From Prolixibacteraceae bacterium (lineage in GTDB: Bacteria > Bacteroidota > Bacteroidia > Bacteroidales > Prolixibacteraceae): DNA of 33,459 bases. Position 1 is the first letter of the stretch; every line of letters starts with the position of its first letter. The position numbers were made by a program, and so were the translations under genes. Location of the stretch: contig JABGRN010000066.1 in assembly GCA_018648265.1 (NCBI GenBank), positions 1-33,459 on the forward strand, read 5' to 3'. Below, piece by piece: positions 12,565 through 33,331 of this stretch. The notes beneath the pieces are model-generated. The model was given only the letters and a program-made list of their open reading frames with translations, was not told the origin of the DNA and did not search any database.

Positions 12565-12628
12565 ATATCCAATTTTACTTTTAAAATCTTTAATTCGGTT
12601 CCAATATAATATAATACATCTAAGTACC

Positions 12629-17873: not shown

Positions 17874-17886
17874 AGTTGAATAATTT

Positions 17887-17933
17887 TAAGTTGAAATTAG
17901 TTTAATTTTATGTTGAAATTTTATGTTGAATTT
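17887..17933 (-). repeat. Repeated TTCAACATAAAA motif in the susC leader
   Basis: On the plus strand TAAGTTGAAATT (17887-17898), TATGTTGAAATT (17909-17920) and TATGTTGAATTT (17922-17933) repeat. Read as mRNA this is a run of A-rich TTCAAC(A/T)TAAAA units ending just before the susC start, where a fifth partial copy, TTCAACTATGAG, contains the start codon. There is no Shine-Dalgarno sequence. Confidence 0.55.
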
Positions 17934-17970
17934 ATTTTGTAACTATTGTTAAAAAAGATTTATTTTGGGA

Positions 17971-18032
17971 TACTTTGTTTGATTTTTGGTGGTACGTTTA
18001 ATTTATTGATAGTTCGTTTAATTTTATTGACG
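17971..18032. repeat. Three direct repeats of ~20 bp upstream of susC
   Basis: TACTTTGTTTGATTTTTGG (from 17971), TACGTTTAATTTATTGATAG (17993-18012) and TTCGTTTAATTTTATTGACG (18013-18032) are head-to-tail copies at 20-22-base pitch. Copies two and three are the closest. They lie just downstream of the predicted transcription start, so they could be operator copies or leader RNA repeats. Confidence 0.55.
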
Positions 18033-18044
18033 ATTTTTCACTAA

Positions 18045-18076
18045 CAAAGCTAATTTATTCTATTGTTAAATACAAA
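18045..18076 (-). promoter_or_regulatory. Bacteroidota-type promoter for susC
   Basis: On the minus strand a TTTG (-33; CAAA at 18073-18076) is followed after 20 bases by TAGCTTTG (-7; 18045-18052), an exact match to TTTG-N19-21-TAnnTTTG. The start of transcription would fall near 18038, giving a leader of about 165 bases before susC. Confidence 0.7.
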
Positions 18077-18144
18077 ATAAAATCTAATTTATATTTATTT
18101 AAAATAAGTATCAAGGGTTAATATGGTCATGTTACTCAATTCTA

Positions 18145-18987: not shown

Positions 18988-19157
18988 AATATTTTATTTT
19001 GAAATTTTTTGATAAGGGTTTAATGCCACTCAATAATAAACCTAATTTGATTAATATCATTTTGATTCTTCATACTCATATATTTCCAGAATTAATTTCA
19101 AACTTTTGTTTTTCTGTTTCATTATTTGTGAAATAAAGATTAGAAGAGCAATAAGCA

Positions 19158-19189
19158 CAAAAATAAGAACTATTAAACACAAATGCAAT
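19158..19189 (-). promoter_or_regulatory. Predicted kduI promoter
   Basis: On the minus strand ATTG (-33; CAAT at 19186-19189) is followed after 20 bases by TATTTTTG (-7; 19158-19165). The -7 fits TAnnTTTG exactly; the -33 matches three of four bases. The -33 lies within the LacI-type palindrome. The leader before kduI would be about 160 bases. Confidence 0.6.
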
Positions 19190-19197
19190 CGATTGCA
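19184..19197. promoter_or_regulatory. LacI-family operator palindrome
   Basis: TGCAATCGATTGCA is a perfect 14-bp palindrome with a central CG, the form bound by LacI/GalR-family dimers. It lies 52 bases before the lacI start in the divergent kduI-lacI gap. Its two half-sites supply the -33 elements of both predicted promoters, so one bound dimer could block both genes. I found no second exact copy in the window. Confidence 0.75.
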
Positions 19198-19222
19198 AAG
19201 TAAAAATAATATATTAACTTTA
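19192..19222 (+). promoter_or_regulatory. Predicted lacI promoter
   Basis: ATTG (19192-19195) is followed after 19 bases by TAACTTTA (19215-19222), a seven-of-eight match to TAnnTTTG. The -33 element is inside the palindromic operator, which predicts autorepression. Confidence 0.5.
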
Positions 19223-19248
19223 CTTCTATCAATACACCAAAAGAACGT

Positions 19249-20277
19249 ATGTCAGAAACAACTATCCACGATATTGCAAAAAAATTAAATATTTCAGCTT
19301 CCACAGTTTCGCGGGCATTAAATGATAATCCGATAATAAGTAAATCGACAAGTAAACGGATTAAAAAAACTGCTTTAGAAATGGGTTACCGCCCAAATAG
19401 TTTAGCCGCTAATTTCAGGACAAAACGAACTAATACCATCGGGATAATTGTACCCTTAATAAACAGGCACTTTTTTTCTTCTGTAATCAGTGGGATTGAA
19501 GACCTTGCTTATACACAAGGATTTGCAGTAACAATTTCGCAATCGAACGATAGTTTTGAGAAAGAGAATAAAATAGCACACACCCTTTTTGCTAACAGGG
19601 TTGACGGTTTAATCCTTTCGATTGGAATGGAAACTATAAAATATGACCATTTAAAACTTTTTGCAGAAAGAAAAATACCAATTGTTTTTTTCGACCGGAT
19701 TGCTGAAACAATTGAAGCACATAAAATAGTAGTTGACGATTTTGGTGGTAGCCTGCGGGCAACCGAACATTTAATTGAACAGGGGGCAAAAAGAATTGCA
19801 CATATCGGTGGGCCGTTAAACCTAAAAATATACCAAAACAGATTAGCAGGATATTTTAAGGCATTGGAACGGGCTGGTTTGGAAATTTGCGATTCTTTGG
19901 TGATTCACAATAGCCTAACAAGAAAAGATGGAACAATTGCTGCACAAAAACTTTTTCAAAATGAGAATAAACCCGATGCCATTTTTTGCGCTAACGATAC
20001 AACAGCACTTAGCACAATAATTTATCTAAAAAATATAGGATTAAAAGTCCCCGATGATGTTTTAATTGTCGGGTTTAGCAATGAACCTTTTTCTGAAGTA
20101 GTTACACCTTCGATTAGCACCATTAAACACCCAGGTTTTTCGATGGGTAGAAAAGCTGCTGAGCTAATTATTCATCAAATTAATGAAAAAGTGACCAGGG
20201 CAGTTTTTGAGACCATAACCATGCCAACCGAACTTATTATAAGAGATTCGTCAAAAAGGATAAAAATTGAAAAATAA
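19249..20277 (+). CDS. LacI/GalR-family transcriptional regulator
   Basis: A 342-aa repressor. The N-terminal helix-turn-helix is at residues 5-24 (TIHDIAKKLNISASTVSRAL), followed by a hinge helix with the operator-inserting motif SLAANFRTKR (51-60). The effector domain begins near 62 (NTIGIIVPLINRHFF) and contains the usual VDGLILS, AHIGGP, PDAIFCANDTTAL and VPDDVLIVGFSNEPF blocks. It diverges from kduI over a perfect palindrome and is likely to repress kduI and itself, with release by a uronate-pathway sugar acid (inference). Its stop codon abuts the stop codon of the convergent regulator with no gap. LacI control is less common for PULs than HTCS or SusR. Confidence 0.95.
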   Translation: MSETTIHDIAKKLNISASTVSRALNDNPIISKSTSKRIKKTALEMGYRPNSLAANFRTKRTNTIGIIVPLINRHFFSSVISGIEDLAYTQGFAVTISQSNDSFEKENKIAHTLFANRVDGLILSIGMETIKYDHLKLFAERKIPIVFFDRIAETIEAHKIVVDDFGGSLRATEHLIEQGAKRIAHIGGPLNLKIYQNRLAGYFKALERAGLEICDSLVIHNSLTRKDGTIAAQKLFQNENKPDAIFCANDTTALSTIIYLKNIGLKVPDDVLIVGFSNEPFSEVVTPSISTIKHPGFSMGRKAAELIIHQINEKVTRAVFETITMPTELIIRDSSKRIKIEK

Positions 20278-21480
20278 TCAATTATCAACCTGATTAAAAT
20301 AAATGACCTCAGAATTTAAAGATGTCCCTTCAATTCCTTCAATTTCAAAAACCATATCGAAAAAGAAAGGTGATTTTGAATTTCCTTCACGATAGTTTTT
20401 TATTAGATCATCAAGAAATTCTGAGTCGCATAACTTCTGAGTTACATCATCAATTCCCCCTCTACCTAAGGCCATTATTAAGGTAATTGTATTGTTGTTG
20501 CCACCTGATCGTTTTGATACAATAATATTTTCATTTCTGTACCCGTCTGTATCTCTGTTAAAATCAAATTTATCAATTGCCTTATTATCTTCATCCAGCA
20601 AAAAATACGATCTTTGTTCCAAATCATATTTTATATTAAATCGTGGAAGCAAACGATTCAAAATATAGAGTGTTTTAAAATCTCCGACAAAAATTATATT
20701 GTTCGAATTAATATCTTCCCATGTAAGTACCGAGGCTCGTTTAATCTTAAATACTTCTTTGCTATTTATCAGATGGGGAATTAAAGTTGATACACTTTCC
20801 GACATTTCTGACGGAGTATAAGTATGCCGGTATTCGTTATATCCTAAAGTATCAAGATGGCTTTGTTGGAAATCTTCAGATGAATTTATTTCGGAATTAC
20901 GAACAAAATGCCTGTCACCATCTATTCTTTTCTGCATAAAAAAGAAATCGCCGACAACAATTAATGTTGGTAGATCAGAATTTGAGTATTCTTTCCAAAC
21001 AGGATTTCTGGAAGCAGTTTTTGAATCGCTGAATAGATTGTTTTTCTCATTAATCTGGTGTACAACAAAAACGGTAAGTAAAACCAATGTAATAAAAACA
21101 AATAAGGCAGTAATAAATTTCAACCTATTTAATTTCGAGCTCTTTTTTCTTGATTCAAACTTTACATCGTAATGTCCTTTTGGAATACTTATTTTTATTG
21201 TCGAGTTTTTGCTATCCTCTGAAAGGTAAAACGTCTCCAGTTTGTTCCTTAATTTTCCAGTATAAACTCTTACAGTAGAATCAAGCGACGGATCGAAATC
21301 TCCATCCTTATTAAATACATCGATAGCAATATGTGCCTCTTTGATGTATTCTTTGGCTAGCGTTTTTTTAACCAAATAATCAAGAAGTTTTTTTTCTTTT
21401 TCGGAATTTACAAACTGAGGCGTTTGAAAAATTAATTCCAGCTCTTTTTCTAAAGTTTTTAAATTTACCTTACCCTTCAT
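20278..21480 (-). CDS. Membrane-anchored winged-helix regulator, ToxR-like layout
   Basis: A 400-aa protein. The N-terminal part (about 20-108) matches the winged-helix-like module found in some adenylate-cyclase/TPR and regulator proteins: SEKEKKLLDYLVKKTL, then VFNKDGDFDPSLDSTVRVYTGKLRNKLETFY and ISIPKGHYDVKF. A lysine/arginine-rich stretch precedes one membrane span at about 119-141. The remaining ~255 residues would be periplasmic and contain LPTLIVVGDFFFM and NNIIFVGDFKTLYILNRLL, alternating strands and helices that resemble a Rossmann-like or binding-protein fold. I do not recognise that domain. The layout parallels ToxR/CadC: cytoplasmic DNA binding, one span, outside sensor. It faces the sulfatase operon divergently, suggesting it controls it. 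Confidence 0.7.
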   Translation of the reverse strand: MKGKVNLKTLEKELELIFQTPQFVNSEKEKKLLDYLVKKTLAKEYIKEAHIAIDVFNKDGDFDPSLDSTVRVYTGKLRNKLETFYLSEDSKNSTIKISIPKGHYDVKFESRKKSSKLNRLKFITALFVFITLVLLTVFVVHQINEKNNLFSDSKTASRNPVWKEYSNSDLPTLIVVGDFFFMQKRIDGDRHFVRNSEINSSEDFQQSHLDTLGYNEYRHTYTPSEMSESVSTLIPHLINSKEVFKIKRASVLTWEDINSNNIIFVGDFKTLYILNRLLPRFNIKYDLEQRSYFLLDEDNKAIDKFDFNRDTDGYRNENIIVSKRSGGNNNTITLIMALGRGGIDDVTQKLCDSEFLDDLIKNYREGNSKSPFFFDMVFEIEGIEGTSLNSEVIYFNQVDN

Positions 21481-21537
21481 TATAGGTTTTAAGAATTACC
21501 TGTATAGTTTTTCCCGCATTTCAAGTGCTAAATTTTC

Positions 21538-21567
21538 CAAAATTAATAAAACCGTTTTAAAAGCAAA
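21538..21567 (-). promoter_or_regulatory. Predicted promoter of the membrane winged-helix regulator
   Basis: On the minus strand TTTG (CAAA at 21564-21567) is followed after 18 bases by TAATTTTG (21538-21545), an exact TAnnTTTG match with a slightly short spacer. An operator-like palindrome sits between the two elements. Confidence 0.5.
21547..21559. promoter_or_regulatory. Operator-like palindrome, copy 1
   Basis: TAAAACCGTTTTA is an odd-centred 13-bp palindrome located in the spacer of the regulator promoter. A related copy occurs at 22039-22051 before the first sulfatase. Both are followed on the plus strand by AAAG(C/A)AA, so the shared stretch is longer than the palindrome. Confidence 0.45.
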
Positions 21568-21611
21568 TGAAATTGAAAATTTATCTATGGTTTATTTTAT
21601 GGGATGTGCCA

Positions 21612-21637
21612 ACATGTTAATTATTGTTTTTACATGT
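21612..21637. repeat. Paired ACATGT motifs at 20-base spacing
   Basis: ACATGTT (21612-21618) and ACATGTT (21632-21638) repeat exactly 20 bases apart, two helical turns, in the divergent regulator/sulfatase gap. The first lies in the longer palindrome AACATGTT (21611-21618). Possible regulator binding sites. Confidence 0.35.
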
Positions 21638-21667
21638 TTTTACTTACCTGAATAAAAGGAGATTTGT

Positions 21668-21715
21668 ATGTTTAAGCCAATAAACCAATTAAACCTAATT
21701 TTTTGTATTTGCTAA
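21668..21715 (+). CDS. Possible 15-aa leader peptide
   Basis: ATG at 21668 to TAA at 21713-21715 encodes MFKPINQLNLIFCIC. It is preceded by AAAAGGAGATTTGT, an unusually strong Shine-Dalgarno sequence for this genome, where other genes lack one. The stop codon overlaps the first arm of a 14-bp terminator hairpin. This is the arrangement expected of a leader peptide or a short independent transcript. Confidence 0.4.
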   Translation: MFKPINQLNLIFCIC

Positions 21716-21770
21716 AAAGCATAAAACTAAAGTTGTATTATTTCTTGCAATTTTTGTTTTATGCTTTTTT
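21714..21770 (+). terminator. Intrinsic terminator or attenuator before the sulfatase operon
   Basis: A perfect 14-bp inverted repeat, AAAAAGCATAAAAC (21714-21727) and GTTTTATGCTTTTT (21756-21769), has a 28-base loop and a T6 tail. It directly follows the 15-aa ORF. It would stop plus-strand transcription starting in the first part of this gap; the A/T tracts make it potentially bidirectional. Confidence 0.75.
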
Positions 21771-21815
21771 CGTTTCCATTTTAAACATATTCAAAACTAA
21801 ATATTACAAGGGCTT

Positions 21816-21878
21816 ATGAAAAAAGATGAGATTCGAAAAAACGGCCTTCTTTGTCAGAAAAATATTCCAAAGTTTTAG
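21816..21878 (+). CDS. Possible 20-aa small ORF
   Basis: ATG at 21816 to TAG at 21876-21878 encodes MKKDEIRKNGLLCQKNIPKF. An AAGGG sequence sits about 4 bases before the ATG. A long hairpin follows 37 bases later. It repeats the small-ORF-plus-hairpin plan seen just upstream. It may be chance. Confidence 0.25.
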   Translation: MKKDEIRKNGLLCQKNIPKF

Positions 21879-21915
21879 TTTTTCATATAGATTTTTTGTT
21901 TTGGTAAACAAAAGT

Positions 21916-21963
21916 AAAAGTGGTTTTTCAGATTCTCTTTTGAGATTCTGAAATCCACTTTTC
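21916..21963 (+). promoter_or_regulatory. Long hairpin in the leader region of the sulfatase operon
   Basis: AAAAGTGGTTTTTCAGATTC and its near-complement ending CCACTTTT form a stem of about 20 pairs with two small internal mismatches and a TTTT loop (21916-21963). The tail is TTTTCTAAC, weaker than a normal terminator. It could be an attenuator, an RNA-processing site, or part of a promoter region. Confidence 0.5.
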
Positions 21964-21972
21964 TAACATTTG
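21939..21972 (+). promoter_or_regulatory. Tentative promoter of the sulfatase operon
   Basis: TTTG (21939-21942) is followed after 21 bases by TAACATTTG (21964-21972), which resembles TAnnTTTG with one extra base. It would give a leader of about 150 bases before the first sulfatase. It overlaps the right arm of the hairpin. Weak call. Confidence 0.3.
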
Positions 21973-22038
21973 TGCTCAACTAAAAAATCTGAACTGTTAA
22001 ATGACTTCAATCTTTTTGAATTCAACTTTATTCCGCAA

Positions 22039-22051
22039 AGAAACGGTTTTA
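22039..22051. promoter_or_regulatory. Operator-like motif, copy 2
   Basis: AGAAACGGTTTTA matches the complement of the copy at 21547-21559 in 11 of 13 positions and keeps the palindromic core. It lies about 82 bases before the first sulfatase start. The pair suggests common control of the regulator gene and the sulfatase operon. Confidence 0.4.
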
Positions 22052-22132
22052 AAAGAAACAAGATCTATGTTACAATTCAACTAACACCAATAGCAATTTT
22101 AACAAATAAAGTATAACTTAAACATTCAAAAA

Positions 22133-23527
22133 ATGGTAAACAAATATTTCATAAAAACGGCACTCATTTTTGTTTTTTGTTTTTTTCAGATTCAACAATC
22201 TTTTTCTGAATCGAAACAAAAACCAAACATCGTAATTATTATGACCGATCAGCAATTTGCGGATGCAATGAGTTGTGTTATGGGAAATGATTATTTAAGT
22301 ACGCCGAATATGGATTTATTAGCTGAAAAAGGTGTGCGTTTTACAAAAGCATACGCACCAAATCCATTGTGTTTGCCGATGCGTACTTCAATGGCTACCG
22401 GATTATTTCCACACCAAACAGAAGTTCTTACCAATAACAACAAAAAAATAAAAGCTACAGAATACTCGTTTCTGGGAAAAATATTTAAAGACGCGGGCTA
22501 CGAAACCGGTTATTTTGGAAAGTGGCACATTGCTTTAAAAGAAGAAGAAAAAGAGATTCATGGTTTCGATACAATGTTTCCTAAAAGTAATTTAGACGCT
22601 GAACCAGCAATTGATTTTATAAAACAGGACCACAAAAAGCCATTTCTTGCAGTTGCATCGTTTTTAAGTCCACACGAAATATGTCAGTGGGCACGAAAAG
22701 AGGAATTGCCAGGTGGCCCGATTAGCGAATTGCCAGCATTAGAAAATTTACCTCCGCTTAAAACAAACTTTGGAATTCCTCAAAACGAAACTGATGTTAT
22801 GGCTTTTATGAGAGAGTCGTACCACGCAAACCGCCGCTTTCCGGTTGGCGAATATACCAATGCCGACTGGCGAAGATTGGCTTGGGGTTATAACCGCCTA
22901 ATTGAACGCGCAGATGATTTTGTTGGAGAAATTACAACTGCAATAAAAGAATCGGGGCAGGAAGAAAATACAATTGTTGTGTTTCTCAGCGACCATGGCG
23001 ATTGCGCCGGGAGTCACCATTGGAATCAAAAAACAGTTTTTTACGATGAATCGGCTCGTGTTCCACTGATTGTAAAGTGGGAAGGAGTCACCAAAAAAGG
23101 AACTTCCAATGTTCTGGTAAATACTGGTATCGATATGATTCCAACACTTTGCGATTTTGCAGGAATTGATATCCCCGATGGACTTCCGGGCAAAAGTATG
23201 AAAGCACCAATTTTGGATAAAACACCCAATTGGAAAAGAGACTTTATAGTTTCTGAGAATCACATGGTACAAGGCGATCCGGTTGATGAAAAAGCTTTAC
23301 AACCATTTGGCAGAATGATTCGTAGTACCAATTATAAATATTGCATTTACAGCGAAGGAGAAGAGCGGGAATCATTGGTTGACATGCAATTTGACCCGGG
23401 GGAAATGGTAAATCAGGCAAAAAATCCGGTTTATAAAAAAGTATTGGAACAGCATCGATCATTTCTTAAAGAACATGCGGAGGAAAGTAAAGATAAAATC
23501 GCACTTGAAATGCTCAATGAATTATAA
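22133..23527 (+). CDS. Family S1 sulfatase (CLPMR active site)
   Basis: A 464-aa formylglycine-dependent sulfatase. The signal peptide covers about residues 1-25 (ALIFVFCFFQIQQSFS). The metal site begins with MTDQQ (D39, Q40). The active-site cysteine is Cys80 in CLPMRTSMATG; the consensus is CxPxR, and Met at the fourth position instead of Ser/Ala is unusual. Other catalytic positions are K130 and H132 (GKWH), H181 (SPHE), D287-H288 (SDHGD) and K300. It should hydrolyse sulfate esters on sugars outside the cytoplasm after conversion of Cys80 by a maturase encoded elsewhere. It is the first gene of an eight-gene plus-strand cluster. Confidence 0.93.
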   Translation: MVNKYFIKTALIFVFCFFQIQQSFSESKQKPNIVIIMTDQQFADAMSCVMGNDYLSTPNMDLLAEKGVRFTKAYAPNPLCLPMRTSMATGLFPHQTEVLTNNNKKIKATEYSFLGKIFKDAGYETGYFGKWHIALKEEEKEIHGFDTMFPKSNLDAEPAIDFIKQDHKKPFLAVASFLSPHEICQWARKEELPGGPISELPALENLPPLKTNFGIPQNETDVMAFMRESYHANRRFPVGEYTNADWRRLAWGYNRLIERADDFVGEITTAIKESGQEENTIVVFLSDHGDCAGSHHWNQKTVFYDESARVPLIVKWEGVTKKGTSNVLVNTGIDMIPTLCDFAGIDIPDGLPGKSMKAPILDKTPNWKRDFIVSENHMVQGDPVDEKALQPFGRMIRSTNYKYCIYSEGEERESLVDMQFDPGEMVNQAKNPVYKKVLEQHRSFLKEHAEESKDKIALEMLNEL

Positions 23528-23717: not shown

Positions 23718-25280
23718 ATGAAAAAACTGATTGTCTTCCTTGCAATAATTTCCCTTCTTCCTCAGTGCAAGACAGAGGTAACAGACGAACGTCCCAACAT
23801 TTTGCTTGTAATGGTTGACGACATGGGGTTCTCTGATATTGGCTGCTATGGTGGCGAAATTCAAACGCCAAATCTCGACAAACTGGCCAACGACGGTCTT
23901 CGTTTTTCGCGTTACTACAACACGGCAAAATGTTTTCCATCGCGTGCCTGCCTGCTAACCGGACAATATGCGCAACACAACGGAATGGCTCAAAAAGCAA
24001 TGAAATTTACAAATGCCGTAACCATTGCCGAAGTATTACGCGAAGCGGGTTACCGTACATTAATGAGCGGAAAACATCATGGAGAAGAGAATCCGTTTTA
24101 TTTTGGATTCGACCGTTATTTTGGATTAAAAGATGGCAGCAGCAACCATTTTAATCCTGGTTTACAACGCGACGGCGAAGTTATTCCGGGACAAAAATCA
24201 ACAAGATTTCAACCACGTGCGTGGGGAATAGATAGCATTGTTTACGAGCCTTATACACCTCCCGAAAAAGATTTTTATACCACCGATTATTTTACAAATT
24301 ATGCCGTCGATTATTTAGAGGAATATAAAAATGAGGACAAACCATTTTTTATGTACGTGGCTTACACCGCGCCTCACGATCCCTTAATGGCATGGCCCGA
24401 AGATCAGCAAAAATACTTTGGTAAATACATGGTTGGTTACGAAACCATCCGTCAAAAAAGATTCGAACGACAGAAAGAAATGGGATTAATTAATGAAAAC
24501 TTCCCGCTGTCTGAACCAACATACGAAAACTGGGAATCGCTATCGCAAGAAGATAAACTGGTACGCGATTCAATTATGTCAACGCATGCGGCTATGGTCG
24601 ATCGAGTTGACCAGAATATTGGCAGAATTCTGACGAAACTGGAAGAGCTAAATAAACTGGATAACACTTTAATTTTATTTATGTCGGATAACGGTGCGCA
24701 ACCACAAGCTAATCCCGACAGTTGGCTTTGGGCAAAAGGGAAAGTCTCCGATTATAGCCAGCCCATTGGAAGTATGGGGAGATACACTTCGTTAAGTCTT
24801 TCGTGGGCAAATGTTAGTAACACACCATTCCGTTTGTACAAATCGAACAGTCACGAAGGAGGGATTTCTACACCGCTGATAATGTACTGGAAAGGTAAAA
24901 TTTTAAATCCGGGAAGTATTACTAATTTCCCCTCGCACCTTATTGATATAATGCCTACCATACTTGAAGTAAGCGGGGCAGATTATCCTGAGAATTTTAA
25001 TAACGAAAAAATTAATCCGGTTGACGGAGTAAGTCTTTTTTCATTGGCAAACGGACTTGAATATGAAAGAGAAGAACCACTTTTTTGGCAGTGGCAAAGT
25101 GGGAAAGCTATCAGAAAAGGAAAATGGAAACTGGTGTCAGACAATAACGGACCGTGGGAATTGTACAATATGGATGTTGACGAAACAGAAACAAATGACC
25201 TTGTCGAAGATTTCCCCGAAGTTGTAAAAGAACTAACAGCCGATTGGGAGAATTGGATTCAAAATAGTACCGAAAATTAG
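23718..25280 (+). CDS. Family S1 arylsulfatase-type sulfatase (CFPSR active site)
   Basis: A 520-aa lipoprotein sulfatase. A short signal peptide ends in the lipobox LLPQC (Cys17), suggesting attachment to a membrane surface. The metal residues D34-D35 lie in MVDDMG. The active-site cysteine is Cys72 in the classical CFPSR, followed by ACLLTG. Further catalytic positions are K119 and H121 (SGKHH, replacing the usual GKWH), H220 (APHDP), D324-N325 (SDNGAQ) and K375 (KSNSHEGG). The SHEGGISTPLI block is typical of arylsulfatase-A-like S1 enzymes. It follows the first sulfatase after a repeat-filled gap and may have separate expression. Confidence 0.94.
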   Translation: MKKLIVFLAIISLLPQCKTEVTDERPNILLVMVDDMGFSDIGCYGGEIQTPNLDKLANDGLRFSRYYNTAKCFPSRACLLTGQYAQHNGMAQKAMKFTNAVTIAEVLREAGYRTLMSGKHHGEENPFYFGFDRYFGLKDGSSNHFNPGLQRDGEVIPGQKSTRFQPRAWGIDSIVYEPYTPPEKDFYTTDYFTNYAVDYLEEYKNEDKPFFMYVAYTAPHDPLMAWPEDQQKYFGKYMVGYETIRQKRFERQKEMGLINENFPLSEPTYENWESLSQEDKLVRDSIMSTHAAMVDRVDQNIGRILTKLEELNKLDNTLILFMSDNGAQPQANPDSWLWAKGKVSDYSQPIGSMGRYTSLSLSWANVSNTPFRLYKSNSHEGGISTPLIMYWKGKILNPGSITNFPSHLIDIMPTILEVSGADYPENFNNEKINPVDGVSLFSLANGLEYEREEPLFWQWQSGKAIRKGKWKLVSDNNGPWELYNMDVDETETNDLVEDFPEVVKELTADWENWIQNSTEN

Positions 25281-25299
25281 ATTTTTAGTACTTTAAAAA

Positions 25300-25396
25300 T
25301 TTGCGCTCTTTGCGAAAAACTTTGTGGTATTTGCGTGAAATCCTAAAGTTTTGTTTCACGCAAAGTTCGCGAAAAAGAGACGCAAAGAACGCTAAA
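25300..25396. repeat. CTTTGCG-type intergenic palindrome
   Basis: Repeated TTTGCG units form an imperfect long hairpin. The core is the perfect 11-bp inverted repeat TTTGCGTGAAA / TTTCACGCAAA (25330-25340, 25354-25364). Outer arms contain TTTGCGCTCTTTGCG on the left and CGCGAAAAAGAGACGCAAAG on the right. It occupies the whole gap between the second and third sulfatases. Repeats of this look are scattered in intergenic regions of many Bacteroidota (from memory, not checked). Confidence 0.65.
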
Positions 25397-25443
25397 TATT
25401 ATGATTATAAGAATTAGAGTTTTTTATTAAAAAGTGATTTAAA

Positions 25444-26781
25444 ATGAAGGTATTAATTCTAACTGTAATAATACTAATTACAGCAATAACAATTTTCGCA
25501 TCGAATTCCGAAAATCGTAAACCAAACATCGTTTTATTAATGGCCGACGATATGGGTTACGAATGTCTAAGCTCAAACGGAAGTTTGTCTCACGACACTC
25601 CATTTCTAGATGAACTTGGTGAAAAAGGAATCAAATTTAATTACGCCATTTCGCAACCGCTTTGCACGCCGTCGCGAGTAAAAATAATGACAGGTAAATA
25701 CAACTACCGTAATTATAAAGCCTTCGGTTATCTCGATAAAAATGAAAAAACATTTGGGAACCTGTTAAAAGATGCGGGTTACGAAACTTGTGTTGTAGGA
25801 AAATGGCAACTAAATGGAGTAAATACAAATTTCGAATCAACTGAAAAAGAACTTTTAAAACGACCGCAACATTTTGGTTTCGACGAGTATTGTTTATGGA
25901 ATTTTATGGGTGAATCCGGGTATCGTTTTGCCAACCCAAAACTTTATCAAAATGGAAAAGAATTAAAAGGTCTGGAAAATAAATACGGTCCGGATGTAGT
26001 AAGTGATTACGCAATCGATTTTATGGAAAGAAATAAAGACAAACCCTTTTTCTTGTACTACCCCATGATTTTAACACATTCGCCGTTCGTTCCAACGCCA
26101 GATTCAAAAGAGTGGAAAAACAAAAAACTACGCCATAAAAATGAAGACCGCTTTTTTAAAGATATGGTTGAATACACCGATAAAATAGTTCAAAAATTAG
26201 TCGCCAAAATTGAGGAATTGGGACTTTCAGAAAACACCATTTTTATATTTACTGCCGACAACGGTACGCATTACAAATTAACAACACAAACTGTAAATGG
26301 CCCTTTTAAAGGTGGGAAAGGAACCATGCCCAATGCAGGATCGCACGTGCCAATGGTGGTTTATAATCCATCGAAAATTAAAAATGGTTTTGATTACAAC
26401 GAATTATTTGAATTCAGCGATTTCCTGCCAACTTTTGCCGAAGCTGCCGGAATAAAAACTCCCGATGGAATTGATGGTAAAAGTTTTTATCCTCTCTTTT
26501 CCGGTCAAAAACAAGAAGCCCGCGAGACAGTTTTTGTACATTACGACCCGCTAAAAAAAGGAGGAAATGAACGTTGGTACGGAAGATTTGTTCGAAACAA
26601 AACTTACAAGCTTTATAACGATGGGCGGTTTTACAATGTGAGTCAGGATTCACGAGAACAAAATCCAATATCAAAAGAAAAACTGATGACAAAAGAAAAC
26701 CACTTGTGGGAAATATTTCAGGCTGAACTGGAAACAGCACCACCCTACTATTTTAAACAGCGAGATGAGTATGATGAGTAA
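25444..26781 (+). CDS. Family S1 sulfatase (CTPSR active site, GKWQ variant)
   Basis: A 445-aa sulfatase with a signal peptide (about 1-20, ending ITIFAS). The metal residues D35-D36 lie in MADDMG. The active-site cysteine is Cys74 in CTPSR, followed by VKIMTG. The usual GKWH is GKWQLNG here, with Gln122 replacing His; some S1 sulfatase subfamilies seem to carry this natural variant. HSPFVPTP, FTADNGTH and GPFKGGKGTM supply the other metal and substrate positions. The gene overlaps the next one by 17 bases, which points to translational coupling with the amidohydrolase. Confidence 0.93.
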   Translation: MKVLILTVIILITAITIFASNSENRKPNIVLLMADDMGYECLSSNGSLSHDTPFLDELGEKGIKFNYAISQPLCTPSRVKIMTGKYNYRNYKAFGYLDKNEKTFGNLLKDAGYETCVVGKWQLNGVNTNFESTEKELLKRPQHFGFDEYCLWNFMGESGYRFANPKLYQNGKELKGLENKYGPDVVSDYAIDFMERNKDKPFFLYYPMILTHSPFVPTPDSKEWKNKKLRHKNEDRFFKDMVEYTDKIVQKLVAKIEELGLSENTIFIFTADNGTHYKLTTQTVNGPFKGGKGTMPNAGSHVPMVVYNPSKIKNGFDYNELFEFSDFLPTFAEAAGIKTPDGIDGKSFYPLFSGQKQEARETVFVHYDPLKKGGNERWYGRFVRNKTYKLYNDGRFYNVSQDSREQNPISKEKLMTKENHLWEIFQAELETAPPYYFKQRDEYDE

Positions 26782-27769
26782 TTCAAATAAAATATCCAGA
26801 AGGGAATTTAACTCAAAGTTGGGTAAAATTGGAGCTGGACTGATTGCAGCAAGCGTACTTCCTTCATTCGGAACTCTTGCACAAAACAATCCGCATGAAG
26901 GAAAATTTATTGATGTTCATCACCATTTGGGAAGCGATTTAATGACCGACTCTGCCAACTTCACATTCGACCCAATTATAAAATGGATGAACAAAAACAG
27001 TGTTTCGCAAACCGTTTTGCTTTCACCCATTCAATATCCCGAAACGTATTATCCAACCAGAGCCGGAAATATTATCAGAAATGATGAATTGCTTGAAAAA
27101 TTTCAGGAAACAAACGGACGGCTTTTGCCATTTTGTTTAGTTCATTACGATGCATTTTCGACTACCAAAGAAATTGTAAAAGTTTTAAAGCGGTTTAAGA
27201 AAAAAGGAGTAATCGGCTTTGGTGAATTAAAACCTCGGGATACTTCCGGAAACTCGGGAAATATACCATTGGATGATCCACGAATGAAACGAATTTATGC
27301 CGCTTGTGCAGAAGTAGATTTCCCGGTTTTATTTCATATCGACAACAAACATGCAGTTGATATACCCGGATTACCCGCCATGGAAAAAGTTTTAAAAGAA
27401 TTCCCCAATGTGAATTTTATCGGCCATGCAAACGGTTGGTGGAATTCCATAACCAGCGACGTAAAAGAGCTAAAAGGATATCCAAAAGGTAAAATTTCTC
27501 CCGGCGGGGCAGCAGTCAAACTGCTCGAAAATTATCCAAATATGTATGCCGATTTATCAGCTAACAGCGGATTAAATGCAATTACCAGAGATCCCGAATT
27601 CGGCACGAAATTTTTAGTCGATTTCTCTGATAAACTTATGTTTGGAACCGATGCAATCGGTGGAACTGGTCGTGAATCTCATTTCGATTTTTATAACAAA
27701 ATTGATTTACCGGAAGAGGTAAAAGACAAAATCTTTAGAAATAATACACGCAAACTGCTTAAAATTTAA
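26765..27769 (+). CDS. Tat-exported amidohydrolase (Amidohydro_2 family)
   Basis: A 334-aa metal-dependent hydrolase. A twin-arginine signal, ISRREFNSKLGKIGAGLIAAS, spans about 10-30 and is followed by a cleavage-like region near 40, so it is probably folded with its metal before export. Metal and catalytic positions of the TIM barrel are H52 and H54 (DVHHH), E154 (GFGELKP), H191 (FHIDN), H221 (GHANGWW) and D296 (FGTDA). Starts at 26765, 26771 and 26774 are all possible; all overlap the end of the preceding sulfatase. The substrate is unknown. Such amidohydrolases recur in sulfatase-rich Bacteroidota loci, where a lactone or ester bond is as plausible as an amide. Confidence 0.88.
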   Translation: MSMMSNSNKISRREFNSKLGKIGAGLIAASVLPSFGTLAQNNPHEGKFIDVHHHLGSDLMTDSANFTFDPIIKWMNKNSVSQTVLLSPIQYPETYYPTRAGNIIRNDELLEKFQETNGRLLPFCLVHYDAFSTTKEIVKVLKRFKKKGVIGFGELKPRDTSGNSGNIPLDDPRMKRIYAACAEVDFPVLFHIDNKHAVDIPGLPAMEKVLKEFPNVNFIGHANGWWNSITSDVKELKGYPKGKISPGGAAVKLLENYPNMYADLSANSGLNAITRDPEFGTKFLVDFSDKLMFGTDAIGGTGRESHFDFYNKIDLPEEVKDKIFRNNTRKLLKI

Positions 27770-27779
27770 ACTTACTAAA

Positions 27780-28742
27780 ATGAAAAATATATACTTCTTT
27801 TTAGGATTTATTTCTTTATTGATTTCCATAACAAGTCCGGCTCAGGACAAAAAGAAAAGTGAAGCTTTAATTCCAGAAGGATTTGAAGTTATCAAAGATG
27901 TATTTTACGCCGGAAATACAAACCAAGCACAAACTTTAGATGTTCTTATTCCAGAAAATAAAAAAACAGGGAAACTCCCAGCTCTCGTATTTATCCATGG
28001 AGGAGGTTGGAAAGGTGGTCGAAAAGAACAAGCTTTTAAAACACTCACGCCCTTTTTGAAAAGTGGCAAATATGTTGGATTTTCAATAGATTACCGGCTG
28101 AGTGATGAAGCAAAATGGCCGGCACAAATTCACGATTGTAAAGCAGCCATTCGATGGATTAAAGCAAATGCCGATAAATACGGAATAGACAAAAATAAAA
28201 TTGGCGTTTGGGGTACTTCGGCAGGCGGCCATCTAGTGGCAATGCTGGCTTTAACTTCAGAATCGGGTGAATTTGAAGGAGATATTGGAAACTGTTTAAA
28301 TGAAAATGGAAAAATTAATTGTGCGATAGATGGATATGGACCAGCTGATTTTTTGGCAATGGATGATCGACCGGGTGCTTTTGTTCACAATGAAATAAGT
28401 TCGCCGGAATCCAGATTAATTGGTGCGCCAATTCAGGAAGATAAGGAAAAAGCACTAAATGCATCTCCGGTTTCGTGGGTATCAAAAAATTGCAAACCCA
28501 TGCTTGTTTATCACGGAACCGATGATGATAAAGTAATAGTCGAGCAGTCAGACAAACTTTATTCAATGCTTAAAAAAGCCGAGGCAAGTGATATATTTTA
28601 TATCAAAATCGAGGGAGGAAGTCATGGAGTCCGGCATTCAATCCTTTCAAAAAGAATGGCACTTTTTTTTCAAAAATACCTTTATAATAAAAATTCAAAT
28701 AAAATAAATGAAGCGGAGCTGAATAATGAACCGCGTCGCTAA
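27780..28742 (+). CDS. Secreted alpha/beta-hydrolase, BD-FAE-like carbohydrate esterase
   Basis: A 320-aa exported esterase. The signal peptide covers about residues 1-21 (LISITSPAQ). The oxyanion loop HGGGW is at 73-77, the nucleophile Ser147 is in GTSAGG, the acid is probably Asp249 in HGTDDDKV, and the catalytic His282 is in GGSHGV. The layout matches the BD-FAE/lipase-like group, which removes acetyl or other acyl groups from polysaccharides. It is 10 bases downstream of the amidohydrolase and 18 bases upstream of the fourth sulfatase, so it is co-transcribed. Likely role: deacylating the sulfated glycan (inference). Confidence 0.88.
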   Translation: MKNIYFFLGFISLLISITSPAQDKKKSEALIPEGFEVIKDVFYAGNTNQAQTLDVLIPENKKTGKLPALVFIHGGGWKGGRKEQAFKTLTPFLKSGKYVGFSIDYRLSDEAKWPAQIHDCKAAIRWIKANADKYGIDKNKIGVWGTSAGGHLVAMLALTSESGEFEGDIGNCLNENGKINCAIDGYGPADFLAMDDRPGAFVHNEISSPESRLIGAPIQEDKEKALNASPVSWVSKNCKPMLVYHGTDDDKVIVEQSDKLYSMLKKAEASDIFYIKIEGGSHGVRHSILSKRMALFFQKYLYNKNSNKINEAELNNEPRR

Positions 28743-28760
28743 ACTTTAAATTTAATTATA

Positions 28761-30326
28761 ATGAAAATCAAAAATCTAATACCAACTATTCTACTTTTAG
28801 CAATTCTCGGATTTGGATGTGAAAAGGAACAAGTTAAACAACCTAATGTTTTATTCATTTCCATAGATGATCTAAACGATTGGGAAGGTGCTATGGGAGG
28901 AAACCCACAAGCTATAACACCAAATCTAGATCGCTTGTTTGACCAAGGTCTTTTATTCACCAATGCTCACTGTTCACAGGCAGTTTGTACCGCATCTCGA
29001 AATTCGTTGTTAAGTGGAATTCATCCTTCCACTTCTGGTTGGTACAGTTCAACCGGAGCCATGAAAAGGACTTACGATGAGGTGATGGCTGAACACGCAA
29101 TGTTGCCTCAGTATTTTAAAGACAATGGTTACAAAACAATGGCTGTTGGTAAAATTTTTCATGCCGGAGTGACGGATTATAAAGACCGCATCGACGATTT
29201 CTGGGACGAATATGCACCCGACTACAAAGTCCCAAAAGATTTAAAAGACCGTGGCGATGGTTACGGTGGAACAAAATTCTACCCCTTTCCAAAAGACCAC
29301 AGTCAGATTATTACGCACTACGGACAAGATTTTAACAGTGGACAGTCCTTGTGTTACGGAGCACTGGACCGCGAAGACATGCCAGGCGGAAAAATGTTCG
29401 ATGAACTGATTTCGGAATGGGCCGTTGATAAGTTAAACGAAGAACACGAAAAACCATTTTTTATGGCTGTTGGTTTTGTTCGCCCACACGTTCCTTATAC
29501 CGCTCCAAAAGAGTATTTCGATTTATATAATCTTGATGATATTAAAATTCCAGAATTTCCAGAGGATGAAATGTCAGACATTCCAAACATGGGAAAATCG
29601 ATTGCTTATGGAACCATAAAAACTGGTGATCATTATGCAGTTGTTAACTTGAGTGATACTTACTGGAAAGAGCTGGTTTACGGATATCTTGCCTGCGTTT
29701 CGTTTGTTGACGACCAGGCAGGGAAAGTAATTGATGCATTGGAAAACAGTAAATATGCCGATAACACAATTGTAGTTTTGTGGTCGGATCACGGTCAGCA
29801 TTTAGGCGAGAAAAAACACTGGCGTAAACAGGCTTTGTGGGAAGAATCGACAAAAGTGCCGCTTTATTTTAAAATGCCCGGGCAAAAAACACAAGGTTTA
29901 AAAACCAAAGAGGCAGTTAGCCTTTTAGATATTTATCCAACGCTGGTTGACTTATGTAATCTCCCCGACGCCCCAAAATTGGAAGGCAATAGTTTGGCTC
30001 CATTAATCCAAAACCCTGAAATGGAATGGAATAAACCTGTATTGAACTCTTGGTATTATGGAAACTACGCAATTAGAAGCAATGACTGGAGGTACATTCA
30101 GTACCGCGATGGCAGCGAGGAATTATACAATCATCAAAACGATCCGGGCGAACACATCAATCTGGCAAGTGATCCTCAATATGCTGAAATTATTGCCGAA
30201 CATAAAAAATGGCTTCCAGAAACAAATGCGCTGCCAGCCGGCATTACTGAATGGACAGGGGACAGATTGGATAATAGAATAAAAGAATGGGCTGCTAATG
30301 ATTCCATTCCGGTTTGGTTAAGGTAA
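28761..30326 (+). CDS. Family S1 iduronate-2-sulfatase-like sulfatase (CTASR active site)
   Basis: A 521-aa lipoprotein with signal peptide and lipobox GFGC (Cys20). The metal residues D36-D37 lie in ISIDDLNDW. The active-site cysteine is Cys76 in CTASR, followed by NSLLSG; Ala replaces the usual Pro, a variation allowed in the formylglycine signature. K131 and H134 occur in VGKIFHAG, a spacing typical of the iduronate-2-sulfatase-like branch. VGFVRPHVPYTAP and LWSDHGQHLGEKKHW complete the active site. The type suggests 2-O-sulfated uronic acid or a related sugar as substrate, which agrees with the kduI/kduD genes, but the fold covers other specificities. Confidence 0.93.
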   Translation: MKIKNLIPTILLLAILGFGCEKEQVKQPNVLFISIDDLNDWEGAMGGNPQAITPNLDRLFDQGLLFTNAHCSQAVCTASRNSLLSGIHPSTSGWYSSTGAMKRTYDEVMAEHAMLPQYFKDNGYKTMAVGKIFHAGVTDYKDRIDDFWDEYAPDYKVPKDLKDRGDGYGGTKFYPFPKDHSQIITHYGQDFNSGQSLCYGALDREDMPGGKMFDELISEWAVDKLNEEHEKPFFMAVGFVRPHVPYTAPKEYFDLYNLDDIKIPEFPEDEMSDIPNMGKSIAYGTIKTGDHYAVVNLSDTYWKELVYGYLACVSFVDDQAGKVIDALENSKYADNTIVVLWSDHGQHLGEKKHWRKQALWEESTKVPLYFKMPGQKTQGLKTKEAVSLLDIYPTLVDLCNLPDAPKLEGNSLAPLIQNPEMEWNKPVLNSWYYGNYAIRSNDWRYIQYRDGSEELYNHQNDPGEHINLASDPQYAEIIAEHKKWLPETNALPAGITEWTGDRLDNRIKEWAANDSIPVWLR

Positions 30327-30393
30327 TAGACTTACCTGACCTCCCCAAAGGGGAACAAAAACATTTATATATAAAATTTTAAATAAAAATATT

Positions 30394-31869
30394 ATGAAAT
30401 CATTATTCACAAAACTGAGCATATTAATTTTGGGGGTTTCAACACTATCTGCTTGTCAAACTACAGAAGTAGATGGACCTTATTTTGGAACTGGAATTAA
30501 AATAGGAGAAGTAACGCAAACAGAAGCTATTGTTTGGGTGCGACTAACAAAAACTGCAGTTCGGGTTGGAAACGATGCGCCAATGCCTGATGTAAAATAC
30601 AAAGATCCAAAAACAGGAGAAATGGTAGAACGAAAAGGCCGCCCTAATGTAACTCCGGTAGTTACTTATCCCGAGGGTTATGATGTAAATAACATTCAGG
30701 GTGCAACACCCGGAAGTGAAGGAAAAGCCAGATTGAAATACAAAATAAAGGACGCCACTGAATGGAATGAAATGGATTGGCAAACCGTAAACCCGGGAGC
30801 AGCCTTTACAACACAATTCGAATTATCTAATCTTTCAGCAGGAAAAGAATATGATCTGGCTGTTGAAGCAAGCCCACTGGAAAGTAAAAAAATAAGTGCC
30901 AAAATTGAAGGGAAATTTAAAACGGCAACTGCTGTTGATGTTCCTTCGAATGTAAATTTTATTGTAACCACAGGAACTTCTTATGGAGACGTTGACAGTG
31001 AAACGGGGTATAAAATCTATCCAAGTTCAATAAAATTAGACCCAGAATTTTTTGTACACACCGGCGATATTGTTTATTACGATGGAATGGGAAAAACTGC
31101 AGATTTAGCACGCTGGCACTGGGACAGAATGTACAGTTATCAGAATAACATCGACTACCATCGCCTGGTCACAAGTTACTTTATAAAAGACGACCATGAA
31201 ACATGGATGAACGATGCATACCCAGGAATGGAAACTAAATTTATGGGTGAATTTACCTACGAACAAGGCACTCAAATTTTTCTGGATGAAGTACCAATGA
31301 GAGAAAAAACCTACCGAACAGTTCGCTGGGGAAAAGATTTACAAATTTGGATGGTTGAAGGCCGCGACTACCGGAGTAAAAATACAGATCCCGATGGCCC
31401 GGAAAAAACAATCTGGGGAAAAGAACAAATGGAGTGGTTTAAGTCTACAGTTCTAGCTTCCGATGCCACATTCAAAGTATTAATCAGTCCAACTCCTATT
31501 GTTGGACCCGACCGCGGAAATAAAAAGGACAACCACGCCAATATTGGTTTTCAATATGAAGGCGATTTGGTTAGAAAATTTATTAGCGAGCAAAAAAATA
31601 TGGTGACAGTTTGTGGCGACCGGCACTGGCAATATATATCGAAAGATGCAGAAACTGGTCTGACTGAATTTAGTTGCGGCCCCGGTGGAAACGACCACGC
31701 TGGTGGTTGGAGTCAGGAAGATTTCTATCCGGAACATGTTTATCTAAATGTTGTTGGAGGTTTCCTCGAAGGATCTGTTTCTCAAATAGACGGAAAACCA
31801 ACTTTAGTTTTCAAACATTATACTCCAGATGGTGAATTATTAAACGAGCATGTAGTAGATTCAGAATAA
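30394..31869 (+). CDS. PhoD-like metallophosphoesterase lipoprotein
   Basis: A 491-aa lipoprotein (lipobox LSAC, Cys21) with an N-terminal fibronectin-like PhoD_N region (about 30-178: EAIVWVRL, LSAGKEYDLAVEAS) and a calcineurin-like phosphoesterase domain. Metal motifs are FFVHTGDIVYYD (D225), KDDHETW (D267, H268), EGRDYRS (about 323-328) and VCGDRHWQ (H411). The first metal motif is replaced by TTGTSYGD near 192-199. Homologues are alkaline phosphatases or phospholipase D-like phosphodiesterases. In this sulfatase operon it might remove phosphate, or conceivably sulfate, from the glycan (inference). A 67-base gap with a short CCCC/GGGG hairpin separates it from the sulfatase upstream. Confidence 0.87.
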   Translation: MKSLFTKLSILILGVSTLSACQTTEVDGPYFGTGIKIGEVTQTEAIVWVRLTKTAVRVGNDAPMPDVKYKDPKTGEMVERKGRPNVTPVVTYPEGYDVNNIQGATPGSEGKARLKYKIKDATEWNEMDWQTVNPGAAFTTQFELSNLSAGKEYDLAVEASPLESKKISAKIEGKFKTATAVDVPSNVNFIVTTGTSYGDVDSETGYKIYPSSIKLDPEFFVHTGDIVYYDGMGKTADLARWHWDRMYSYQNNIDYHRLVTSYFIKDDHETWMNDAYPGMETKFMGEFTYEQGTQIFLDEVPMREKTYRTVRWGKDLQIWMVEGRDYRSKNTDPDGPEKTIWGKEQMEWFKSTVLASDATFKVLISPTPIVGPDRGNKKDNHANIGFQYEGDLVRKFISEQKNMVTVCGDRHWQYISKDAETGLTEFSCGPGGNDHAGGWSQEDFYPEHVYLNVVGGFLEGSVSQIDGKPTLVFKHYTPDGELLNEHVVDSE

Positions 31870-31894
31870 GGCAAAAAAAATAAGATTTAAATTC

Positions 31895-33331
31895 ATGAAC
31901 ATTAAACTTTTTCTTATAATTATTTTGTCTGGTATTGTACTAATTTCCTGGGCACAAAAAAGTGAGGAGGAAAGTTACCAGCTCGTTCCATTTGGAGAAG
32001 GAGGACAGCATAAAATGACTTACGACCGCCGAATGAGACCACAAGCTGTGGTTATGGACGACGAGATTCACCTTGTTTATAATGGTGGTGCACCGGCTGA
32101 TGCCAAAGAACGAACAAAGACTATGAGGTTTGCCACGTCATACAATTTGAAAACAGGTAGTTTTTCTGAGAATATTGAGTTGCCTGGTAAGATAAGCAGA
32201 GACCACCATTATGGACCTATTATTTGGGCAGATAATAACGATTTTTTACATGTTCTCTCAGGGTGTCATCTAACTCCGGGAACGCATGTAATTTCTAAAA
32301 TACAAGCTAGCACCGATGGTTGGGAAATTGCCCCACAAATTGCTTCTTCCATGTCGTACCCTTCGGTATCACAAATTTTCGATAATCAGCAATTAATGTA
32401 TTATCGCACGGGCGAGCACAGAAGTTCATGGACGTATAGTTTAAGCTCAGATAATGGAAATACTTGGCAAACACCAGAAAACTCTGTGGTAGATTTAAAC
32501 AATAAAGGGGAATTAGTTGATTTGCCCCATAAAGATTTAGATGAGGCCTCTTCCTACCAAACTTATTTACCAAGTAACGACGGGAAATCGATTCATGTTG
32601 CTTTTATGTATTATGACGACAACAAAGGGCATCTCGCCGAAAAATCTTACAATCCGCTCTATAAAAAGAGTGTAGGCACATTAAAAACGAATCTGTATTA
32701 TGCTAAAGTAAATTTGGAGACAAGCAGAGTAACGAATTTTGAGGGTATGGAAATGGAAACTCCAATTGTACTTGAGACCGCAAATGCAAAATTTAAAATT
32801 TGGGATACCAACTGGCGCGGTGCAGGCGTACCACCGGATATTATTGTTGACAAGAATGACAACCCGGCTTTTTTACATGTTCTTACAGAAGAGATATTTG
32901 AAAAGTTGAACTACTATTATATTAGGCGTGCAAACGACAAATGGGAACAAACTGTAATTGCACCTTCTTGTCATAAATGGAACAGCAGTCACCTGGCGAT
33001 TGATGATGCAGGAGTATTACATGCCTATTTGTTAATGGATGATGGGTATTTCGAATCGAGTGGAAAAGGCGTAATGAACAACCATGGCGGAGGCACACGA
33101 ATTGAAGAATGGATTTCGAGCGATGATGGAAATACATGGGAAATGAAAAATACACTTCTCAAAGCAGAAGGAGAATACGAAGGTTGGCGTTTTAATAATG
33201 TGCAGCCAATAAAAAACAAAGAAGGAAAGATTAAAGAAGGCATGTGGTTGTTTTATGGGTGGAAACAGAAAGATGGAGAAGCTCCGCAAGCCAAGGCATT
33301 TCTTCTAATTAGCAGTGATGCTAAAAAATAA
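31895..33331 (+). CDS. BNR-4 repeat beta-propeller protein, candidate polysaccharide lyase
   Basis: A 478-aa exported protein (signal peptide about 1-20, SWAQ). It matches the BNR_4 repeat type: RRMRPQAVVMDDEIHLVYNGG, SRDHHYGPIIWADNNDFLHV, and Asp-box-like SSDNGNTW (184-191) and SSDDGNTW (408-415), with strands spaced as in a seven-bladed propeller. Conserved-looking polar residues include H104-H105, H125, Y170-R171 and H175. The ulvan lyase families PL24 and PL25 are propellers that use His, Tyr and Arg, and many uncharacterised BNR_4 proteins are related to them. As no other lyase is present it is the best candidate for making the unsaturated uronate consumed by KduI/KduD. A sialidase-like hydrolase or a binding protein are alternatives. 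Confidence 0.8.
   Translation: MNIKLFLIIILSGIVLISWAQKSEEESYQLVPFGEGGQHKMTYDRRMRPQAVVMDDEIHLVYNGGAPADAKERTKTMRFATSYNLKTGSFSENIELPGKISRDHHYGPIIWADNNDFLHVLSGCHLTPGTHVISKIQASTDGWEIAPQIASSMSYPSVSQIFDNQQLMYYRTGEHRSSWTYSLSSDNGNTWQTPENSVVDLNNKGELVDLPHKDLDEASSYQTYLPSNDGKSIHVAFMYYDDNKGHLAEKSYNPLYKKSVGTLKTNLYYAKVNLETSRVTNFEGMEMETPIVLETANAKFKIWDTNWRGAGVPPDIIVDKNDNPAFLHVLTEEIFEKLNYYYIRRANDKWEQTVIAPSCHKWNSSHLAIDDAGVLHAYLLMDDGYFESSGKGVMNNHGGGTRIEEWISSDDGNTWEMKNTLLKAEGEYEGWRFNNVQPIKNKEGKIKEGMWLFYGWKQKDGEAPQAKAFLLISSDAKK

Follow-up and report, generated by a model that had tools for sequence, protein, structure and literature searches.

A predicted ToxR-like transmembrane regulator with an unfamiliar sensor domain, divergent from sulfatase genes in a Prolixibacteraceae bacterium

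The locus and the predicted architecture of its regulator

The switching-on of exported glycan-degrading systems outside gut Bacteroides is, to our knowledge, poorly known. The question takes a concrete form in the genome of a Prolixibacteraceae bacterium (GenBank assembly GCA_018648265.1, contig JABGRN010000066.1, positions 1 to 33,459; this whole stretch of 33,459 nucleotides is called the window here), where the gene of a putative membrane regulator, REG (20278..21480, minus strand; an ORF of 400 aa with an ATG start, whose relatives align over most of its length), stands between the two halves of a PUL. What does this protein sense, and on which promoters does it act?

REG is divergent from a sulfatase gene (22133..23527, plus strand; PF00884, E 2.5e-48), as a preliminary description of this DNA had stated. 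That gene heads the predicted target operon, the remainder of which (23718..33331, plus strand, grouped by Pfam content and common strand) encodes three more sulfatases, an amidohydrolase, a BD-FAE-type esterase, a PhoD-like phosphatase and a BNR_4 protein. At its other end REG lies tail to tail with the gene of a LacI-family regulator (19249..20277, plus strand; PF00356 and PF13377), the ends of the two convergent ORFs being adjacent. The other half of the PUL includes, by Pfam, KduI, SusC, SusD, two FG-GAP/ASPIC-type proteins, an SDR and a DUF4861 protein; the two large FG-GAP/ASPIC-type genes come straight after SusD (5547-12804), and the one run against Pfam is that at 5547-9032. Rfam gave no match in the window at the gathering threshold, and a scan of 18900-22300 gave 16 sigma-70 promoters against 14.8 in shuffles and one terminator against 1.6.

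The N-terminal part of REG (residues 1-108; 21157..21480, minus strand) is, by sequence, a winged helix of the OmpR/PhoB type, predicted to be cytoplasmic. The window protein by itself matches PF00486 weakly, under the cut-off (E 0.023, 15.2 bits); the consensus of its family (see below) matches at E 8.8e-7, with 29.4 bits for a cut-off of 26.2, and finds the DNA-binding domain of SaeR in PDB (E 0.0029), while hhalign of the family profile with OmpR-type domains of the same genome gives a probability of 85.8 and E 5.4e-6. Taken together, these alignments point to an OmpR/PhoB-type domain and bear out the winged-helix-like N terminus of the preliminary description. Among the 66 family members scanned, 44 match PF00486 at E 0.1 or below (best 3.5e-4). 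In the AlphaFold2 model, five blocks of residues 11-60 have a mean pLDDT of 71-79, and the rest of the domain is lower. The window protein keeps 21 of 28 conserved winged-helix positions; overall it deviates at 11 of 47 family-conserved positions, and one departure, N76K, falls in the presumed recognition helix.

A single membrane span follows at about residues 121-141 (21058..21120, minus strand), very nearly where it had been placed before (about 119-141). Kyte-Doolittle hydropathy over 19 residues peaks at 2.95, in the segment that starts at residue 122; a segment of 1.6 or more is present in 64 of the 66 members, the two others being the fragment L041 and L098 (1.54), and a second such segment in none (0/66). 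Lysine and arginine are commoner on the N-terminal side of the span in 49 of 65 members, with 13 ties and 3 reversed cases (REG itself has seven before the span and three after it), which argues for an N-in/C-out orientation, with the winged helix inside and the C-terminal domain outside. AlphaFold2 renders residues 119-147 as one long helix, at low to middling confidence.

The predicted periplasmic sensor domain (residues 155-400, about 245 residues; 20281..21018, minus strand) has no known family. Neither the window protein nor the family profile or consensus gave an acceptable match to it in Pfam, NCBIfam or PDB sequences, and the profile found nothing among PDB chains at E up to 10, so the sensor remains as unfamiliar as first described. 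When each of the 66 members was scanned separately, Pfam yielded weak and scattered names only, such as DUF6981 in 2/66, with a best E of 3.9e-4. Two candidates were rejected: an outer-membrane lipoprotein carrier in PDB (E 0.69, below the cut-off) and YebC/TACO1, matched by the consensus at E 0.0011 with 19.1 bits for a cut-off of 27. AlphaFold2 models built from a three-row alignment (window, L010 and L011) reached a mean pLDDT of 46.6 and pTM of 0.30 at full length, and 45.7 and 0.45 for the outer domain; an alternating α/β order is all that these two shallow models have in common, and Foldseek of both against PDB returned 0 matches at E 0.001. With such scores and no Foldseek match we claim no fold for the outer domain, which is probably α/β; of the "Rossmann-like" patterns reported earlier, the alternating order stands, and the fold is not established at these pLDDT values. 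The conserved residues of the domain are W162, G177, D178, R194, I198, N199, S200, Y221, S250, G266, K269, G342 and G382, and the window protein retains 15 of 19 family-conserved sensor positions.

The family and its divergent neighbours

By sequence similarity, which spans both the winged helix and the outer domain, REG belongs to an unnamed family. Most of its length can be aligned with 65 further sequences collected here, 64 from the same taxonomic family and one from Calditrichota, and REG is thus no one-off. The 66 sequences contain near-identical pairs and one fragment, L041, which begins at residue 140 and comes from the same stretch as L010; L054 is also incomplete at its N terminus. 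REG is single-copy in its own genome (59 of 59 candidates scored). Matches occur in 40 of 140 genomes of the same taxonomic family, the window's own included, with eight in one genome; 38 of the 40 have more than the winged helix, and four matches consist of the winged helix only. In the phylum, with at most four candidates scored per genome, at least 15 of 395 genomes have matches: one is the window's own, three match in the winged helix only, and at least 11 others have long matches. A later set of 25 copies comes from other families of Bacteroidota. We recognised no paper on this family, which is weak evidence of absence, since subscription papers lay mostly outside the search.

Long copies are also found on plasmids. 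Searches with tblastn and two queries returned 273 and 175 plasmid records, of which 5 and 2, respectively, have one place with at least 80% coverage. The long copies belong to Novosphingobium humi (two records), Novosphingobium sp., Catenovulum adriaticum (two plasmids) and Persicobacter, and so span a gammaproteobacterium (Catenovulum), an alphaproteobacterium (Novosphingobium) and Persicobacter. The rhizobial plasmid matches, among those listed, cover little beyond the winged helix, and no further relatives were confirmed on viral contigs. One Novosphingobium plasmid (L119) carries two family members tail to tail (8866-10161 and 10158-11612), and ORFs that read like TonB-dependent receptors lie near this pair.

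The gene upstream of the regulator is divergent in 62 of 64 cases (the 66 members less two at contig ends), versus 176 of 702 for other genes of the same stretches; genes in the collected loci are greedy ORF calls of this analysis, made without annotation. For the one close relative (68%, L010/L041) the contig is cut before the upstream region. The 62 divergent neighbours comprise 17 GFO/IDH/MocA proteins, 13 3-keto-disaccharide hydrolases, 12 GH2 enzymes, 9 DUF6807 proteins and 3 sulfatases, with one each of TonB receptor, GH97, MFS, GH92, BNR_4 and GH3, and two without assignment; the tally goes by similarity to Pfam-scanned representatives, and a direct Pfam tally gives 8 for DUF6807. Sixty of the 62 fall in families that we classed as typical of carbohydrate loci, a grouping of our own that takes in the broad families GFO/IDH/MocA, MFS and TonB receptors as well as DUF6807, for which no function is known. 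DUF6807 accounts for nine of the neighbours (L044, L055, L058 and similar loci), with 339 aa or, in one case, as a 90-aa fragment, and may be linked to the use of carbohydrates or 3-keto-glycosides.

A survey of homologues beside sulfatases had been proposed in the preliminary description, together with a sulfated or uronic oligosaccharide as ligand. Sulfatases proved to be seldom the divergent neighbour (3/62, the window included, as against 17, 13 and 12 for the three commonest types), and the family as a whole lends that ligand no support. In L082, where the upstream gene is not divergent, sulfatase-like genes lie on both sides. The type of neighbour tracks the tree of the regulators, with 13 changes on 60 labelled members and never fewer than 30 in 200 shuffles of the labels, a pattern that would also arise from the inheritance of whole loci together. 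The ligand may differ from clade to clade.

In the later set the upstream ORF is divergent in 25 of 25 cases, although at least two of these ORFs (107 and 138 aa) are doubtful as genes. By Pfam, the neighbours are CarbopepD_reg_2 proteins (9), TonB barrels (5), GH2, GH3 and DUF1553 proteins (2 each), and single instances of an alginate lyase, a sulfatase, MFS_2, SSF and a LacI-type protein. The long copy on the Calditrichota contig is divergent from a TonB-dependent-receptor gene and that of Persicobacter from a GH2 enzyme; Catenovulum has divergent genes for DUF1553 and DUF1501 on one plasmid, and for a c-type cytochrome, a hypothetical protein and a DUF1080 protein on the other.

Operator-like sites in the divergent regions

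Ab initio motif searches were run on the divergent regions after regulators at least 75% identical had been dropped, which reduced 62 regions to 44; the counts given as fractions below cover all of them. With all regions, the window's included, the best motif of width 20 has a log-likelihood of 236, as compared to 89-99 in five shuffles. The clade runs, made without the window, gave 131 vs 49-56 in block shuffles for the 3-keto clade, 142 vs 56-62 for the GH2/GH3/BNR4 clade, and 137 vs 65-71 for GFO/DUF6807 and others; shuffling moved two-base blocks, and shuffled sets had 100 starts as against 150 for the real data.

The motif takes different forms. In the 3-keto clade it is AACNGTTATAAAACNNGTTT with few departures, and starts 22-30 bp upstream of the regulator start, as placed here, in 13/13 regions; the prevailing form in the GH2 clade is TTAACNGTTA, followed by another half-site roughly one turn further along. 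The core AACNGTT is present in 13/13 and 14/14 regions of two clades versus 25/373 control intergenic regions, and its density is 3.46 per kb in all 62 regions and 0.39 in controls. It occurs in 2/30 GFO/DUF6807 regions, no more than in shuffles, and in 1/4 of the rest; an everted form, GTTA/TTAAC, is found in 20/30 GFO/DUF6807 regions and 10/373 controls. In the later set, which was not used for motif discovery, AACNGTT is present in 12/24 regions and absent from the other 12; it is also absent from the regions of L011, L042, L054, L117 and L119. The later set keeps near-identical members (the L138 and L140 regions are almost the same), and it falls from 25 to 24 with the omission of L140 5580-6515, which has no usual start codon near the expected start. 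Direct repeats of GTTA 11-12 bp apart number 13 pairs in 7.9 kb of the first set, 12 in 6.9 kb of the later set and 9 in 67.5 kb of control; both the tetramer and the everted form were chosen by eye before counting. Winged helices of the PhoB type bind direct repeats about one helical turn apart.

At 652 bp, the divergent region of the window (21481-22132) exceeds the 61 others of the first set, which measure 61-385 bp; the longest of the later set has 841 bp. It holds two operator-like sites on the plus strand: site 1, AAACCGTTTTAAAAGCAA (21549..21566), with an AACNGTT core, 68 bp upstream of REG, and site 2, AAACGGTTTTAAAAGAAA (22041..22058), 74 bp upstream of the first sulfatase. They form an 18-bp direct repeat with 16/18 identical positions, and such a pair arose in 0 of 2000 shuffles, a test made after the fact, the repeat having been spotted before the motif. 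A third AACNGTT core (21992..21998, plus strand), 134 bp upstream of the sulfatase, is possibly due to chance; 4 of 300 shuffles reach three such cores. In the 5.58-Mb genome AACSGTTTTAAAAG occurs exactly three times, at sites 1 and 2 and inside an ORF that reads like susC (by reading, with no Pfam scan). Near copies are common: with one mismatch allowed, AACSGTTTTAAAAG matches at 50 places and its reversed form, the control, at 35. When the matrix of the 3-keto clade is run on the window, site 1 ranks 11th and site 2 falls outside the best 15. The window's sites are thus a diverged form of the motif, and the winged helix of REG has diverged as well. A stretch within 21567-22040 was perhaps inserted and parted the two promoters. 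A 22-bp inverted repeat lies at 21714-21769, between sites 1 and 2.

Proposed mode of action, alternatives and known systems

By its layout REG is, very probably, a transmembrane transcription regulator (TTR) of the ToxR-like kind that regulates itself and the sulfatase genes. The same layout had been proposed from the start, and the divergent regulation through 21481-22132 that went with it gains from the two operator-like sites there. REG is almost certainly a membrane DNA-binding regulator and very likely acts on 21481-22132. We lean towards a carbohydrate as its ligand and, a little more cautiously, towards activation of the sulfatases. The reading as a whole, a ToxR/CadC-type transmembrane one-component regulator with a periplasmic sensor acting on these sites, we consider quite probable.

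On this reading, the action of exported enzymes would give rise, within the periplasm, to an oligosaccharide or a modified sugar, and the outer domain would bind this carbohydrate or a breakdown product. The single helix would carry the signal across the inner membrane to the winged helix, which would stay in the cytoplasm. Bound as a dimer or in tandem to paired half-sites, the winged helices would, in the ligand-bound state, recruit RNA polymerase at the sulfatase promoter (site 2), and site 1, inside REG's own promoter, would most likely serve autorepression.

The same protein and sites could also work in the opposite sense, with REG repressing the sulfatase promoter until the ligand or product releases it, which seems rather unlikely. 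Site 1 lies within a match to TTTG-N18-TAATTTTG (21538..21567, minus strand, aimed at REG), which we take to be the Bacteroidota promoter consensus; the window has 4 such matches against 2.2 expected, so that each is weak alone. This position, together with the constant place of the 3-keto site just before the regulator start, fits repression, at least of the regulator itself. Site 2, however, is at a usual place for an activator site, and there is no TTTG/TAnnTTTG match around it; besides, characterised ToxR/CadC-type proteins are mostly activators.

It is less likely still that the outer domain senses a protein partner (TonB receptor, SusD or exported enzyme) or membrane stress in place of a small ligand. 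The CarbopepD_reg_2 proteins and TonB barrels that make up 9 and 5 of the 25 later-set neighbours are in line with this idea, and ToxR and TcpP have the partners ToxS and TcpH in Table 1 of the available text of PMC10269533. Yet the divergent neighbours belong to varied families, and no downstream gene is common to the family: the gene that follows is convergent in 50 of 66 cases and varied, with LacI in the window, and accordingly no co-transcribed ToxS-like partner was seen, the 16 same-strand genes being taken together here. One group has a recurrent convergent downstream gene of 233-238 aa.

We see very little room for the possibility that sites 1 and 2 are operators of the adjacent LacI protein and that REG has other targets. 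LacI-type proteins bind palindromes, and positions 21547-21559 (TAAAACCGTTTTA) form a perfect odd palindrome; but the LacI/KduI region has a perfect CG-centred palindrome of its own, TGCAATCGATTGCA (19184..19197, plus strand, between the two genes), and the AACNGTT motif is absent from 18988-19248 and 17874-18144 and accompanies the REG family where the adjacent gene is not LacI-like. TGCAATCGATTGCA is likely the LacI operator; the genome has it once in exact form and five further times with a single mismatch. Neither the region upstream of SusC nor 21481-22132 contains it, even when up to 3 mismatches are allowed, and in 21481-22132 there is also no CG-centred 14-mer palindrome with 6/7 pairs. 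As this candidate operator is unlike the REG sites, the two halves of the PUL may be under separate regulators, a point on which the preliminary description has to be amended. Finally, the structure model is poor and the topology predicted, yet a cytosolic REG with the hydrophobic stretch in a soluble core is hardly credible, given the conservation of the strong hydrophobic segment, the positive-inside bias and the modelled long helix.

As a transmembrane one-component regulator acting on its divergent region, REG shares with the ToxR/CadC-type TTRs an OmpR-type winged helix, one span predicted in the same chain, and a C-terminal outer domain. It differs from them in that its family is tied to carbohydrate loci and in that its outer domain shows no sequence homology to that of ToxR or CadC, or to any other domain that we found in PDB or Pfam; distant kinship of fold is possible. 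In the accessible part of PMC10269533, TTRs are described as widespread and enriched in Bacteroidota, and those characterised in its Table 1 include none from Bacteroidota, NanR (sialic acid) being the nearest in theme.

The preliminary description had set REG apart from the HTCS, SusR and ECF/anti-sigma systems usual in PULs. The Pfam scan of REG at E up to 1 agrees in part, as it shows no histidine kinase, receiver or AraC domain and no sigma-70 or FecR domain; the contrast with SusR was inapt, since the SusR family also consists of membrane one-component regulators of glycan genes (PMC3878776, as far as its text was available). The difference lies in the layout, as described in that text: the putative HTH of SusR, dissimilar to other known DNA-binding domains, lies close to the C terminus, whereas the winged helix of REG is N-terminal. 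The same source gives the SusR family as confined to Bacteroidetes, and its predicted sites as direct repeats with a spacing of 67 or 77 bp. In Bacteroides, BT2157/BT2158 are a DUF1080-family 3-ketotrehalose hydrolase and a periplasmic glycoside 3-dehydrogenase (available portions of PMC9007349 and PMC11300592), and their pathway is of the kind that flanks many REG relatives; the operon has a SusR-like regulator instead (PMC3878776, PMC11879859), and the accessible text of the latter names SusR4 (BT2160) as the regulator of BT2156-2160.

We are inclined, with some reserve, to see in the REG family a further class of PUL sensor-regulators, additional to SusR, HTCS and ECF/anti-sigma. Its members would be one-protein switches whose sensor has a new fold; they would be present across Bacteroidota, Calditrichota and Proteobacteria, and their clades would read different glycans or 3-keto-glycosides and share one DNA code. 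If that code, in which AAC/GTT half-sites are spaced by about one helical turn, is real, regulons could be read off genomes, and the motif may predict the sites of the family. With sensor, span and DNA-binding part in one protein, nearly always divergent from its likely target, the family would offer a direct route from unknown sulfatase, GH2 and 3-keto-glycoside loci to inducers, and its members are possibly ready-made one-protein sugar sensors.

Other proteins share the DNA-binding part of REG. The PhoB/OmpR response regulators have the winged helix and, in the case of PhoB, direct-repeat sites about one helical turn apart; unlike them, REG has no receiver domain and is membrane-bound. In rhizobial winged-helix "adenylate cyclases" and in FlgO/TPR-like winged-helix proteins of Bacteroidota, the winged helix is about 35-42% identical over some 100 residues among the matches listed, but the C-terminal part is another one, and nothing else aligns. 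Four proteins (L104, L105, L107 and L108) combine the same winged helix with a different C-terminal part, which in two cases is FlgO/TPR-like, at weak scores; in all four the divergent gene resembles that of the second sulfatase in the window.
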